Positions 48,741 through 54,024 of a stretch of 64,000 nucleotides of DNA are shown piece after piece; the stretch's first letter is position 1, and every line of letters begins with the position of its first letter. This stretch comes from Bdellovibrionales bacterium GWA1_52_35 (GTDB lineage Bacteria; Bdellovibrionota; UBA1018), in NCBI GenBank assembly GCA_001769805.1, contig MEPO01000013.1, forward strand, positions 84,538-148,537. The letters are read 5' to 3'. The notes beneath the pieces are model-generated. The model made no database searches and was not told the origin of the DNA. It saw only the letters and a program-made list of their open reading frames with translations. Made by a program: the position numbers and the translations under genes.

Positions 48741-49769
48741 TTGATGGATATTCAGTTTCCAATCAGGCCCCGTCCACCCGGTGCCCGAAAAAAACGTCTT
48801 GGAGCCCGAGCTGATGCGAACCGCGGCCCGGTTACTCATGGCTATATCAAGAGCTTCGATGGCACCCAGCTTTTCTACAGCACTGAAGGTACGGGCAAAC
48901 CGCTGGTCTTTTGCTATGGACTGGTTTGCTCGAGCCTCCACTGGACCTATCAGATTGATCACTTCCGGGAAAATTATAAAACCGTCTGGTTCGATTATCG
49001 CGGTCACCACAATTCAGAAACTCCCGAAGACCTATCCAGCCTGACCATCAGCAACATTGCCCGGGATCTCGACATCCTTCTTGATGAGCTGAAGATCGAA
49101 AAACCCGTTTTCCTCGGCCATAGCATGGGAGTGAACGTCGTACTGGACTATTACCGTCTTCACCCGGAACGGGTTCACGGAATGATCCTGGCGAATGGGA
49201 CAGCCCAACGACCGCTGGAAACACTTTTTCGACATAATGCCCTGCAAACCGGTTTCGAACTGCTCAAGAAAGCGCATCAGAAGTCGCCCGAACTGGTTTC
49301 AAGCTTTTTAAAATTGCAGAAAGGTAATCCGCTCGCTCGGACGCTGATCGGTATCGGTGGGTTCAATCCCAACCTCACGCCCAAAGAGGACATCGAACTT
49401 TACGTCAATCAGGTGCTCGAAATGGATCCCTCAATTCTGATTCACCTGATCCAGAACTATGATTCTTACGATGCGACCTCCTGGTTGCATACAATCTCAA
49501 GTCCCACGCTAATCATCGCCGGGCAACAGGACCGGGTCGTACCCTTGGAACAACAAGAACTCATGAAACAGCTGATCTCCGGCAGTCAGCTGGAAATTAT
49601 TCACCACGGCAGTCACTGCCCGCAGATGGACCTCCCGGATCTCGTCAACTTCAAGATCGAAAACTTTTTGAAGGAGATCAATTACGGTTCAGAGTCCATT
49701 CTGACCATGGAAAGCGCCAGTCAATCCACTGCGACAGATCCATCCCCTGTTCCTTCAGCAGGCGCTTGA
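48741..49769 (+). CDS. Alpha/beta hydrolase
   Basis: YFDYRGHHNS-type region, VFLGHSMGVNVVLDYYRLHPERVHGMILANG nucleophile elbow, AGQQDRVVPLEQ, HGSHCPQMD. Confidence 0.92.
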   Translation: MMDIQFPIRPRPPGARKKRLGARADANRGPVTHGYIKSFDGTQLFYSTEGTGKPLVFCYGLVCSSLHWTYQIDHFRENYKTVWFDYRGHHNSETPEDLSSLTISNIARDLDILLDELKIEKPVFLGHSMGVNVVLDYYRLHPERVHGMILANGTAQRPLETLFRHNALQTGFELLKKAHQKSPELVSSFLKLQKGNPLARTLIGIGGFNPNLTPKEDIELYVNQVLEMDPSILIHLIQNYDSYDATSWLHTISSPTLIIAGQQDRVVPLEQQELMKQLISGSQLEIIHHGSHCPQMDLPDLVNFKIENFLKEINYGSESILTMESASQSTATDPSPVPSAGA

Positions 49770-51603
49770 ACGGATCCATGCAGCGCTGCCCCCTGCACTT
49801 GCCCTCGCCCACGTGAGTGACGGATAATACCGCTTCGGGAGAACGCAATTTCCCCTGCTGTAACCGCGCAATCACGGACTCGGCCGAGATGCTCTGACAA
49901 GAGCAGAGAAATTCGTCCGAGGGGTCGGACTCCGGACGTTTAGGCAGCTGAACCGCCATCCCTTTATGAATTTTTGTCTGACAGGCCAATTTTTTCACGC
50001 CGTCCACATTCACATCACAAAGTCCGCAACTTCCGTCTGAACAATGAAGCAGGTCTTCAGGCCGGGCCAGTCCGAGTTCAAACAAGGCCGTGGCAATAGG
50101 CACCTGGTCACGAACCCGGCGCTTCTCGCCGTTCATGGTGATTTCCACTTTGCCTTCCTGCTTTTGTGAATCGTCCACCGCTGCAAAATATTTTTCGTCC
50201 GCAGCAGCAGAAAGCTTTGGCCGCTTGATCGCGCGCGCTTCCCAGAGCAGATGTGAAGGAATTTCCAGTTGTACAATGGTCACCGGTGACTCCGGCTCCG
50301 GCGGCGAGTCCTTGTCCCGCACCACTCTTGCCGAACCGAGCACCTCTCCATGCCGATTCAGAATAACCGGTAATTCTCCATGTTTCCAATTCCGCTTTCC
50401 GCGCCAGGGCAGTCCCAGAAGAGAAGACGACTGCTCCTCTCTCTGGTGAAGCAGAACAATGGCATCAGCGGGGCAGACTCTGACACAGACACCGCAGCCA
50501 GTGCACTTTTCCTCATCCAGCCCGTGTTCCACACTAATGGCCCGTTCGGGGCAGATCAGATGGCAGACATTGCACGAGATACTTTCGATGCACTCAATGG
50601 AGGCGACCGGGCGGTTGAGATGCGCTGCCTTCGGCACCCCGGCACATTCCTTGATCTTGCGCAGATCCGGGGCGGCAACCCACTTCCCTTCGTAAGCAGG
50701 AGTAAAGGGTTCCTGATAATGGCGTTGATAGCGCTTCAACCGGCTGCGGGCTTTTTTCAAAACACTCTCGAGTTCTTCCCGATTTGATTCCTGCTGAGCA
50801 CCGAGCGCTTTGATGATCTTACAGGCCAGCCATCGTCCTCGCTCCTCTTCGAGGAGCCAACCATCGATGTCCTGCTCTTTTGTTGCTCCGGCAGTCTGTT
50901 CCAATTCGAGCAAAAGAGAGCCAGGTGGATACTCCCGGATTGCTGGAAGATCTGAAAAGGGCCCGGCCATTACGACACGCGTGACTTCCTGGACCCGAAT
51001 ACCGTGGGAATCCTGCAGACGTAACTCCCAAAGCAAAGCCGCCTGTCGCGTGAGACTCAGCGGCTGCGCTTCGATCAGCTTGCCTCCGGCCATTTCAAAC
51101 CGGCGCCGAAACACTTCCCACCCCGAAAATCGCTTGGCTCCTCGCTGTGGATTGGTTTCAACACAGATGACCTCTGCCACACCGGAATCCAGAAGCTCAC
51201 AGCCGAACTGAAGGGCGGCATTGCCTGAGCCCAGAATGACCGTATTAGGGTCCCAGGAAACTGAATGATTCTTCCAAAGACGCTTTGCCGTGTTCAGCGG
51301 CACAAGGGCCGGGGAGTCCCAGCCTTTGAACGGATCTGCAATGAGACCGGTCGCAGCAACCCGTACCACGGAACGTGCGTGAATCCGGTGAATTCGGCCC
51401 TGGATGTCCTGAGCCAACACCAGAGCGCCAGCTCCCTGAAGGGGAATCACTCCTTTGACGGAAATCGATTCGCCACCAAAAACGCCCACGGTCAGGCCCA
51501 TCTTTGCGCAAAAAGAGGAAAGGGATCGCACCCCCACAGAGGGCCAGGGCTCAGCCCGGGGTCCTGCCGCGATCACAAGATCAAAATATCCATCGCGGAT
51601 CAT
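49678..51603 (-). CDS. Multidomain FAD/NAD-type + 2x[4Fe-4S] ferredoxin + [2Fe-2S] oxidoreductase
   Basis: VILGSGNAALQFGCELL, CNVCHLICPERAISVEHGLDEEKCTGCGVCVRVCPADAI, CSDGSCGLCDVNVDGVKKLACQTKI, FLCSCQSISAESVIARLQQGKLRSPEAVLSVTHVGEGKCRGQRC. Confidence 0.82.
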   Translation of the reverse strand: MIRDGYFDLVIAAGPRAEPWPSVGVRSLSSFCAKMGLTVGVFGGESISVKGVIPLQGAGALVLAQDIQGRIHRIHARSVVRVAATGLIADPFKGWDSPALVPLNTAKRLWKNHSVSWDPNTVILGSGNAALQFGCELLDSGVAEVICVETNPQRGAKRFSGWEVFRRRFEMAGGKLIEAQPLSLTRQAALLWELRLQDSHGIRVQEVTRVVMAGPFSDLPAIREYPPGSLLLELEQTAGATKEQDIDGWLLEEERGRWLACKIIKALGAQQESNREELESVLKKARSRLKRYQRHYQEPFTPAYEGKWVAAPDLRKIKECAGVPKAAHLNRPVASIECIESISCNVCHLICPERAISVEHGLDEEKCTGCGVCVRVCPADAIVLLHQREEQSSSLLGLPWRGKRNWKHGELPVILNRHGEVLGSARVVRDKDSPPEPESPVTIVQLEIPSHLLWEARAIKRPKLSAAADEKYFAAVDDSQKQEGKVEITMNGEKRRVRDQVPIATALFELGLARPEDLLHCSDGSCGLCDVNVDGVKKLACQTKIHKGMAVQLPKRPESDPSDEFLCSCQSISAESVIARLQQGKLRSPEAVLSVTHVGEGKCRGQRCMDPFKRLLKEQGMDLSQWIDWRFPWSEWTLNRN

Positions 51604-52793
51604 CTTAGATTTCCCTCCCGGGCCTCTTGAAACGAAGTACAGGCGGACCTGGCGCGCCGGACGATATCCACCAGTGAACCATCACAGCCTGCAACGACCC
51701 ACGTCCGTGGATCTTTCGAAAGTACAAAGGGTGCCGGTGACCCCTTGGCCCATTCAAACATCGCTTTATGTCGCATGGAACGGACTGCAAAACTTTCCCA
51801 GTTCAGAAATTCGCACAAGCTCGAGAGCCGCTCAAATGAATGGGCATCGGCCCAGCTCAAACCCGGTTCTTTGAACTGAAGCAAGGGTCCCGCTAGCAGG
51901 ACAGATAGACGATGGAGTTCCCGCCCCTCACTGCTTTCGGCCCAGACTGTCATGTCACGATAAGTACCGATCGTATGGGCATCCAGTTTGTCGCGAGAGG
52001 CGAGCGACCATTCTTCCCAGAGGCGGATACCATCGGGCAAGGGCAGCGAACGATCTACTTCTTTCGCCTTGGCAAGCACCCACTGATTCAGCCGCGAGGT
52101 CCAGAAGACCAGCATGCCTTCGTGGATTCGGGCCGTATAATGTTTATCCCCGGTCGTGAAACGGATGCCGCCCGGCATGAGTTCGATTTGTCCGGCACCG
52201 CAGATGAGGCGTTCAGGCCCAAGGCGTTCGCTCAAAAACTCAAGAAGACCTTCGCGATAATTCACGACATCAAATTCGCAGAAACTCGGCAGCAGTAGGC
52301 CCCTGCTATGATCCGCGTTGCGGATCTTCGCCATGCCCGGAAAGCGACCGACGGCCTGGACTCCATCCAATATCTGCGGCTTGAGTCCCCAGTCTCCGCC
52401 ATCGATGAAAAGGCTTTCGAACAGATCCCATTGGTCAGGCGGTGACTCGGGACCAACTACCCAAAGTCGTGATCGCTGCCGGAGTTGCGGTGCCGCAGGA
52501 TCATGAAAACCCGCCGTGGACCCCTTCTCCGACCAGTACTCCACCGCACCGGGAAAGGAAGGGCGCAGCTGGGCAATTGCGTTTTCAGGGAGGTTCAGAA
52601 GCAGACGGTCCCGATTGAAGGTATTCCGGGTCAAGGGCCAGAGAGGATCGAGCGAGAGCTCCGAGTCTTCCTGGAAGAAATCGTCATCGGGATTGAGCAG
52701 AAGAACGCTGTAGCCTTGTGAAACCAGCTGATTGGCGGCGACGAGAGATGCGACTCCCGTTCCCAGGAGTACCACATCACTATCGAGCGGCAT
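51600..52793 (-). CDS. FAD-dependent oxidoreductase-like protein
   Basis: DSDVVLLGTGVASLVAANQLVSQGYSVLLLNPDDD Rossmann motif; C-terminal WVVAGCDGSLVDIVRRARSACTSF. ATG at 52793 preferred. Confidence 0.8.
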   Translation of the reverse strand: MPLDSDVVLLGTGVASLVAANQLVSQGYSVLLLNPDDDFFQEDSELSLDPLWPLTRNTFNRDRLLLNLPENAIAQLRPSFPGAVEYWSEKGSTAGFHDPAAPQLRQRSRLWVVGPESPPDQWDLFESLFIDGGDWGLKPQILDGVQAVGRFPGMAKIRNADHSRGLLLPSFCEFDVVNYREGLLEFLSERLGPERLICGAGQIELMPGGIRFTTGDKHYTARIHEGMLVFWTSRLNQWVLAKAKEVDRSLPLPDGIRLWEEWSLASRDKLDAHTIGTYRDMTVWAESSEGRELHRLSVLLAGPLLQFKEPGLSWADAHSFERLSSLCEFLNWESFAVRSMRHKAMFEWAKGSPAPFVLSKDPRTWVVAGCDGSLVDIVRRARSACTSFQEAREGNLR

Positions 52794-54024
52794 CCACCAA
52801 TCCTCCCATGACGCGTCTGAGCGCCGTCTGTAATTGCGCTTTCTTGTATTCACTGTGCGCGCTGCGACCCCGTTCATTTTCCTCATGGCTCTTGATGTCG
52901 AGCACCTGGACTTCATAAGGATAAAAAAACCGGACCTCGCGCTGCAGGTGAACCATGTCGACGCGATCAAGAACCTTCATAATCTCCCAATAGGCCGGGT
53001 TGGATTTGGCCAGGGCTTTCAGCTCCCGGATTTCGTCATACACCGGGTTGCATAGTTTGATCAGCTGCCGGCAGGTGAATTGAATCGAGTGGTAAAACTC
53101 ACTCGAATGCGGATTGTCCGGGCTCACGCGCGGAGCATGGGCCGCCTGCTGAAGCCGGTCGACAAATTCCTTCTCGGTGATTTCGGCACGGGCGAGCTGG
53201 TCCTGAAGACTCGCCAATTGCACCCTGAACTCTTCAAGATCCACCAAGGTATTACGGGAGCGGCTCGGCTTAATGTTGGGCACCACAATGATCATCTGAT
53301 CCTTGATGTACTTCACGACCCGCAGGCAATCCAGCGGGGTTTCCGTGATAAACCGGATCCCCACGCGGTCAAAAATATCCTCCGCCACATTTTCCGGTTT
53401 GTGGAGCAGCTTGAGAATGATCGAGTTCCGGGCTTTCTTCGGTTTGGCTTCAAAAGATACAAGATTGATCCGGATGGGTTGACCATCCTTGTCGCCGAGG
53501 AAAAGGTTCCCTTCGCCGTCGCGGTGGATGATCTTGTAAAACCGGTCGAGGATCTGCATTTGGATATCGAGAAAATAAGGGGAGCGCAGATCTTTATCGA
53601 TATGAGCGATGGTGTGCATGACCTTCAGGACGGAGCAGGCCCAGTTTCGCAGCAAAAGCGCTTGCGGATCCAAACCCACGGCTCCACCGCTCTGGCTTGC
53701 CAGGCGGAACAGCTCGGCGATATCAGTCAGCTCGAGGATCTTTCGCGGAATATCGATGCGCAACCCGCTGGGATTCTCCGGCTGCAGAAAATAGCGGCGG
53801 ATGAAATTCAGGGCCTCATGAAAGTTGCCCATTACCTCCGCTTTTTCAATCGGATTACTGAAGTCATAGCCGTAGCTCAGGATGAATCGGTTGGCCTGTT
53901 CGAGATTGCGCAGATGCAGGCCAGCGGAGGAATCAATGAGCGAACGCCCACTGAGGATGACGTCGAGGACATCCGGACGAAAATCATACTGGGAGCGAAT
54001 ACTGGCTTCAGGTGGCAAACTCAT
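52780..54024 (-). CDS. Conserved protein with divergent RelA/SpoT-like nucleotidyltransferase domain
   Basis: KPKKARNSIILKLLHKPENVAEDIFDRVGIRFITETPLDCLRVVKYIKDQ ... FYHSIQFTCRQL ... YPYEVQVLDIKSHEENERGRSAHSEYKKAQ parallels RSH synthetase motifs in order. Confidence 0.6.
   Translation of the reverse strand: MSLPPEASIRSQYDFRPDVLDVILSGRSLIDSSAGLHLRNLEQANRFILSYGYDFSNPIEKAEVMGNFHEALNFIRRYFLQPENPSGLRIDIPRKILELTDIAELFRLASQSGGAVGLDPQALLLRNWACSVLKVMHTIAHIDKDLRSPYFLDIQMQILDRFYKIIHRDGEGNLFLGDKDGQPIRINLVSFEAKPKKARNSIILKLLHKPENVAEDIFDRVGIRFITETPLDCLRVVKYIKDQMIIVVPNIKPSRSRNTLVDLEEFRVQLASLQDQLARAEITEKEFVDRLQQAAHAPRVSPDNPHSSEFYHSIQFTCRQLIKLCNPVYDEIRELKALAKSNPAYWEIMKVLDRVDMVHLQREVRFFYPYEVQVLDIKSHEENERGRSAHSEYKKAQLQTALRRVMGGLVDAAR

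Follow-up and report, generated by a model that had tools for sequence, protein, structure and literature searches.

The window, a 64,000-nucleotide stretch of contig MEPO01000013.1 from Bdellovibrionales bacterium GWA1_52_35, carries at 52780-54024 (-) a gene that an earlier note, made from the letters of the DNA, had taken for a divergent RelA/SpoT-like synthetase with a large insertion, lying in a redox operon. This locus raises the question whether the encoded protein is a true relative of the RSH synthetases, whether its active site is intact, and what such an enzyme would make beside the long Rel that the genome also encodes.

The gene encodes a member of an uncharacterised family with RSH motifs

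The open reading frame encodes a 414-aa RSH-superfamily protein of the TIGR04552/TIGR04562 family, a putative ATP:3'-pyrophosphokinase, as judged from its translation, family and Pfam scores, structural model and fold matches. All motif strings quoted in the note were recovered from the translation in RSH order, namely NSIILKLLHK, EDIFDRVGIRFITETPLDCLRVVKYI, PNIKPSRSRNTLVDLEEF, FYHSIQFT and YEVQVLDIKSHEENERGRSAHSEYKK, and the reading frame is real. The guess that it might belong to TIGR04552 was borne out: the protein scored 366.4 bits against this NCBIfam model (cut-off 125) and 385.5 bits against the sister model TIGR04562 (cut-off 140). It matched these models over their full length with nothing structural different, and the scores make it a plain member of a named, uncharacterised family. 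The models carry no function, and the papers searched gave no published function for the family. What is added here, from alignment and model, is the tie of this family to the RSH synthetases and a map of its putative active site.

The protein also matched the Pfam RelA_SpoT domain PF04607 above its gathering score (33.0 bits versus 27, E 7.8e-8, residues 197-249), as well as the NCBIfam spoT_relA model, weakly. We assembled a set of 59 divergent orthologues, down to about 30% identity, which is the basis of the conservation counts, the structural model and the family profile; 39 of them matched PF04607 at E<=1e-3. A six-frame search of the own genome gave two PF04607 loci, namely an ordinary long Rel (152 bits), encoded on another contig, and the gene at 52780-54024.

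Profile and fold comparisons support RSH descent

Searching the sequences of the PDB with the single 414-aa protein returned nothing relevant, whereas the profile of the 59 orthologues did match: only four chains were found at E<=1, and all were RSH/SAS synthetases (RelSeq, YwaC/RelP, Mtb Rel and RelA) aligned at the catalytic motifs. Family members scored up to 15.5 bits against an HMM built from the Rel synthetase domains of the phylum, and about 1,200 shuffled or reversed copies stayed at or below 5.6 bits. A profile-profile comparison with the same Rel domains aligned the catalytic Glu region alone (probability 36%, E 4e-4), probably due to shallow alignments on both sides and to the insert, which breaks the alignment.

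The AlphaFold model, built from the 59-sequence alignment, reached a pLDDT of 89.4 and a pTM of 0.83. Its best 50 PDB matches in Foldseek were all RSH/SAS enzymes, among them RelSeq, Mtb Rel, RelP, RelQ, SpoT and CapRel. The E-values were modest (1.4e-3 to about 0.5) and the TM-scores low, owing to the inserts and the additional domain. The nucleotidyltransferase/RSH fold, whose possible absence the note had proposed to check, is present in this high-confidence prediction, and the RSH-like synthetase domain that the note had read from the motifs is recovered by Pfam, family profile and predicted fold alike. A chance match of the motifs was ruled out by the profile, the fold, the conservation and the shuffled-sequence controls.

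The ATP and Mg site is retained

We mapped the active site onto the ligand residues of SaRelP, whose roles, including those of K80, S84, K88, D107, R112, E174, H190 and Tyr151, were taken as given in PMC5794853; equivalences were assigned by sequence registration and fold similarity. By sequence registration, SaRelP K80, S84, K88, D107, R112, Tyr151, E174 and H190 correspond to K197, S201, K205, D219, R224, Y311, E371 and H390, respectively, and these residues are kept in 58-59 of the 59 orthologues when Y311 is counted as Tyr or Phe.

The ATP-phosphate motif K194-x-x-K197-x3-S201-x3-K205-x3-K209 (53398-53445 (-); SaRelP K80/S84/K88) is invariant at K194, K197 and K205 (59/59) and kept in 58/59 sequences at S201 and K209. 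It is followed by the Mg-ligand and adenine-side motif D219-x-x-G222-x-R224-x-x-T227 (53344-53370 (-); SaRelP D107 and R112), in which all four named residues are found in 59/59. The catalytic strand and helix, E371-V-Q373...G386...H390...Y393-K394 (52843-52914 (-)), correspond to the RSH motif EVQIRT...AExGIAAHWxYK; E371, Q373, G386 and Y393 are invariant (59/59), and K394 and the ribose-side His, H390, occur in 58/59. The spacing from E371 to G386, H390, Y393 and K394 (+15/+19/+22/+23) recurs unchanged in the long Rel that this genome encodes. The catalytic Asp and Glu that the note had read as retained, D219 and E371, both putative Mg ligands, are each present in 59/59.

A few positions around this site differ from the canonical enzymes. 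One of the two adenine-stacking arginines of SaRelP, R112, is R224 in 59/59; the position of the other, R78, is occupied by Pro, Ser or another residue (P195 here), next to the invariant K194. Where SaRelP has R91, the protein has H208, adjoined by K209, and the Arg of the RSH EVQIRT motif is replaced by a hydrophobic residue (L375) followed by a near-invariant D376. Taken together, these results make descent from the RSH superfamily with an intact ATP site almost certain.

The acceptor loop is rebuilt

The canonical GRFKDYI...PKxNGY(xSLHT) loop is missing between D219-x-x-G-x-R224 and Y311. Residues 250-311 (53092-53277 (-)) instead form a rewritten acceptor (G-) loop made up of N250/P253/N258, a helical insert, N304 and Y311. 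N258 and N304 are invariant (59/59), and 39-52 residues lie between them across the orthologues, in line with the note's reading of a replaced GRFKDYI loop plus an insert. Two helices are predicted in this insert by the AlphaFold model (residues 263-278 and 284-294), and R255 is found in 52/59 orthologues. Y311, the equivalent of SaRelP Y151, is Tyr in 54/59 and Phe in 5/59 at the aligned position, with its binding role taken over from SaRelP. It is followed by a family-specific strand, I314-Q-F316-T-C-R319 (53068-53085 (-)), in which F316 and R319 are invariant (59/59) and nothing in the RSH motif corresponds to R319. Ahead of the catalytic Glu strand lies a second variable segment, 11-49 residues long.

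The N-terminal domain matches no solved fold

Residues 1-182 (53479-54024 (-)) form an N-terminal helical domain with a conserved H137-x3-H141-x3-D145 motif and near-invariant P93, W128 and Q155/Q157. Among the 59 orthologues H137 is invariant, and H141, D145, W128 and Q157 are near-invariant. When modelled alone, the domain reached a pLDDT of 87, and a Foldseek search of this model against the PDB gave nothing better than E 1.2. We looked for an HD-hydrolase motif in the domain and found none, nor any fold match; the reading of the N-terminus as an HD hydrolase was therefore ruled out, with neither an HD motif (Pfam) nor a PDB fold match. As far as sequence and model can tell, the domain is not the RSH hydrolase, and Foldseek ties it to no solved fold. 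This conserved domain and the near-universal, single-copy distribution of the gene had both been missed in the earlier note.

The protein shares with the long RSH enzymes (Rel, RelA, SpoT; RelSeq 1vj7, Mtb Rel 5xnx) the SYNTH fold, the motif order and the K-S-K, D-R, Tyr, E-Q and G-H-Y-K positions. However, it carries no HD hydrolase, TGS or ACT domain (Pfam), so the long-RSH combination of an HD hydrolase with TGS/ACT is absent; the GRFKDYI...PKxNGY loop is replaced, the N-terminal domain is unrelated, and the GRFKDYI...PKxNGYxSLHT loop that marks canonical (p)ppGpp synthetases is not found. Like RelP and RelQ (6ex0, 6fgk, 5dec), which are among its best fold matches, it is a stand-alone synthetase without a hydrolase, and its ATP-site residues match those of SaRelP. 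The matched SAS structures comprise 181-203 residues, whereas proteins of the family are 357-585 aa long, adding an N-terminal domain of about 180 residues, the 39-52-residue G-loop insert and the 11-49-residue variable segment. The 414-aa protein is therefore not a single-domain SAS of about 180-200 ordered residues with no extra domain.

The gene is a core gene of Bdellovibrionota

The family was present in 170 of the 189 genomes drawn from Bdellovibrionota, and in 148/158 of those that were >=90% complete and <=5% contaminated, almost always in one copy. Nearly every genome searched carried one long Rel beside it. The nearest named relatives were MAGs of Bdellovibrionales, Oligoflexia and Bacteriovoracaceae at 60-66% identity. 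Outside Bdellovibrionota the search covered 14 control genomes, plasmids and phages; the gene was found in 0/14 control genomes, and no plasmid homologue was found. The gene tree recovered most genome families as clades and broadly followed them. Both the window's class and a second large group (f15) have the family gene close to recG and oriented divergently to pgpA and recA; in f15, the largest group, it stands alone as a monocistronic gene. Genomes of another group (f13) carry it with a lipoprotein gene before it and a PlsC-type acyltransferase gene after it. We infer that f13 is Bdellovibrio-type and f15 Bacteriovorax-type. These results show that the gene is a vertically inherited core gene and not a mobile one.

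Three further observations were made in these searches. The lipoprotein gene of the f13 genomes is conserved, encodes about 210-230 aa and is separated from the family gene downstream by 16-56 nt (L059:8302-8952, L061:10189-10869, L075:8283-8909, L076:8278-8964); the lipoprotein tested from these genomes had no Pfam or NCBIfam match. The phage search gave a single match (L111 and L112), a TIGR04562 member on MW495066.1 ('Microcystis phage MaAM05', 273,876 bp). Submitted as a complete phage genome, the entry contains rpsA, rplU, rpmA, ruvA, trpS, fliA, fliM, cheB, smc, secDF and mqnC; it is plainly bacterial chromosome, probably from a Bdellovibrio-like organism that forms plaques and was taken for a phage. 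In addition, two Bdellovibrionota genomes encode an extra, separate PF04607 protein of about 350 aa (G047:C1:3625858-3626172, G052:C108:862-1176), with an intermediate score of 67 bits and distinct from both the long Rel and the TIGR04552/TIGR04562 family.

Predicted reaction and alternative acceptors

Alignment and model show that the protein is homologous to the RSH superfamily, is predicted to have its fold and conserves the ATP/Mg site almost completely. It is probable that the protein is an active ATP:3'-pyrophosphokinase of this superfamily with changed acceptor specificity; that it is an active pyrophosphokinase at all, as its residues predict, is likewise probable. Mg-ATP would be bound as in long Rel and RelP/RelQ, and its beta,gamma-pyrophosphate would be passed to the 3'-OH of an acceptor nucleotide. 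Because the ATP and Mg site is intact, we infer that the reaction is most likely a pyrophosphate transfer from ATP to a 3'-OH. The base-stacking Tyr is retained, so a nucleotide base is expected in the acceptor site, and the loop is rebuilt, so specificity would be changed or gated differently. In the pocket, a longer loop that is partly helical and carries the invariant N258, N304, F316 and R319 would take the place of the canonical one, with the Tyr kept, and the N-terminal domain would probably act as a ligand or partner sensor or regulator of synthesis, forming a regulatory or second catalytic part. The acceptor is probably still a nucleotide and may not be plain GDP/GTP, and a non-canonical product is possible. 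As to its size, we lean towards a small nucleotide rather than RNA.

Like toxSAS enzymes and CapRel, the enzyme might instead pyrophosphorylate a tRNA or other RNA at its 3' end, and would in this way regulate or shut down translation. CapRel (7ztb) is among the PDB fold matches, toxSAS/CapRel and the family share a divergent SYNTH domain with altered acceptor use (read here from sequence and model), and the rebuilt pocket, with its basic residues R255 (52/59) and invariant R319, could accommodate RNA. However, neither a fused antitoxin domain nor an adjacent conserved small antitoxin gene was found, the family gene standing alone in f15 and between lipoprotein and acyltransferase neighbours in f13. 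The family also gave no PADLOC match and no plasmid homologue, and a conserved single-copy gene of vertical inheritance is unlike mobile toxin and defence genes. Neither the cognate antitoxin nor the patchy, mobile distribution of toxSAS/CapRel was thus found, and we regard this toxSAS-like reading as unlikely. A toxin-antitoxin reading was rejected, as there is no partner and the upstream candidate in f13 genomes is a lipoprotein by sequence.

The SYNTH fold might also serve another phosphoryl or nucleotidyl transfer, with a cofactor or a lipid precursor as a possible acceptor, or the protein might be a pseudoenzyme that binds ligands to gauge nucleotide levels. The loss of the canonical acceptor loop, the new invariant residues N258, N304, F316 and R319 and the novel N-terminal domain would be consistent with such a change, as would the phospholipid-gene neighbours (pgpA, a PlsC-type acyltransferase) in several lineages. 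The pgpA neighbourhood, however, includes recA and recG and resembles general synteny. Pseudoenzymes seldom keep metal- and phosphate-binding residues invariant, whereas here these residues are invariant or nearly so over 59 sequences down to about 30% identity, and changed chemistry appears distinctly unlikely.

The redox operon is confined to one order

Downstream of the synthetase gene lies a gene for a DAO-like FAD protein (51600-52793 (-); weak PF01266 match), whose ATG at 52793 is 14 nt inside the synthetase gene. The third gene of the operon encodes a flavin/4Fe-4S/2Fe-2S oxidoreductase with Fer4 and Fer2 domains (49678-51603 (-)) and has an ATGA (4-nt) overlap with the second. The redox operon claimed in the note is thus real locally. 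The claim does not carry beyond one order: the DAO-like protein was found in 21/112 genomes of the phylum, all of the window's order, and the pair is absent at all 31 other family loci examined, where the synthetase keeps the same invariant residues. Within the order, the DAO-like gene lies immediately downstream of the TIGR04562 gene in 20/20 genomes with listed synthetase coordinates, and the Fe-S oxidoreductase adjoins the family gene in 17/17 loci, with the DAO-like protein recognisable in 15/17. The pair (49678-52793 (-)) is conserved, overlapping and seen only downstream of the synthetase in this order, and has itself no close named family. Being confined to one order, the operon is real but recent, and in that order the synthetase would be translationally coupled to the oxidoreductase pair.

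That the protein is a dedicated part of this flavin/Fe-S system, making or regulating something for the redox complex, fits the overlapping genes, the downstream position of the DAO-like partner in each checkable case and the adjoining Fe-S gene, but it is an unlikely reading, since the synthetase persists without the pair elsewhere and its base function is therefore independent of it. Absent from 31 other loci, the redox operon does not define the function of the synthetase, and as a general defining function it was ruled out.

Relevance to the biology of Bdellovibrionota

On the favoured reading of an ATP:3'-pyrophosphokinase with changed acceptor specificity, the enzyme would act beside the long Rel as an additional alarmone-type input specific to Bdellovibrionota. 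The papers found treat alarmone signalling of Bdellovibrio-type predators solely as ordinary ppGpp/DksA biology, and in the literature searched PMC9888234 alone names the TIGR04552 family. There, experimental evolution of Bdellovibrio sp. NC01 brought a deletion of one base in the 'TIGR04552 family protein' DOE51_RS08710 to >75% frequency in line B; starvation survival was improved over the ancestor in every evolved population, though not significantly in all of them (PMC9888234). Line B also carried three other high-frequency mutations, and the DOE51_RS08710 change was absent from the other lines (PMC9888234), so that the tie of the frameshift to starvation survival is suggestive only. The deletion indicates that the gene can be lost without loss of predation in NC01. 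A more far-reaching proposal, a second alarmone system of the phylum in which a nucleotide signal other than (p)ppGpp, made by this enzyme in its rebuilt pocket and sensed or destroyed by the HxxxHxxxD domain, sets growth arrest against survival between prey, is tentative and as a whole rather doubtful.

What is new here, as read from sequence and model, is that the family is a branch of RSH-type synthetases with an intact ATP site, a rebuilt pocket and a novel N-terminal fold, conserved across a predatory phylum. The protein is a near-universal second RSH-type enzyme of Bdellovibrionota, in which both the acceptor pocket and the attached domain are new. If active, it would be a new branch of alarmone synthetases and perhaps the source of a new signal. 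It is a candidate for the predator's choice among hunting, growth and starvation survival, which would fit the rise of the frameshift in a starvation-adapted line.
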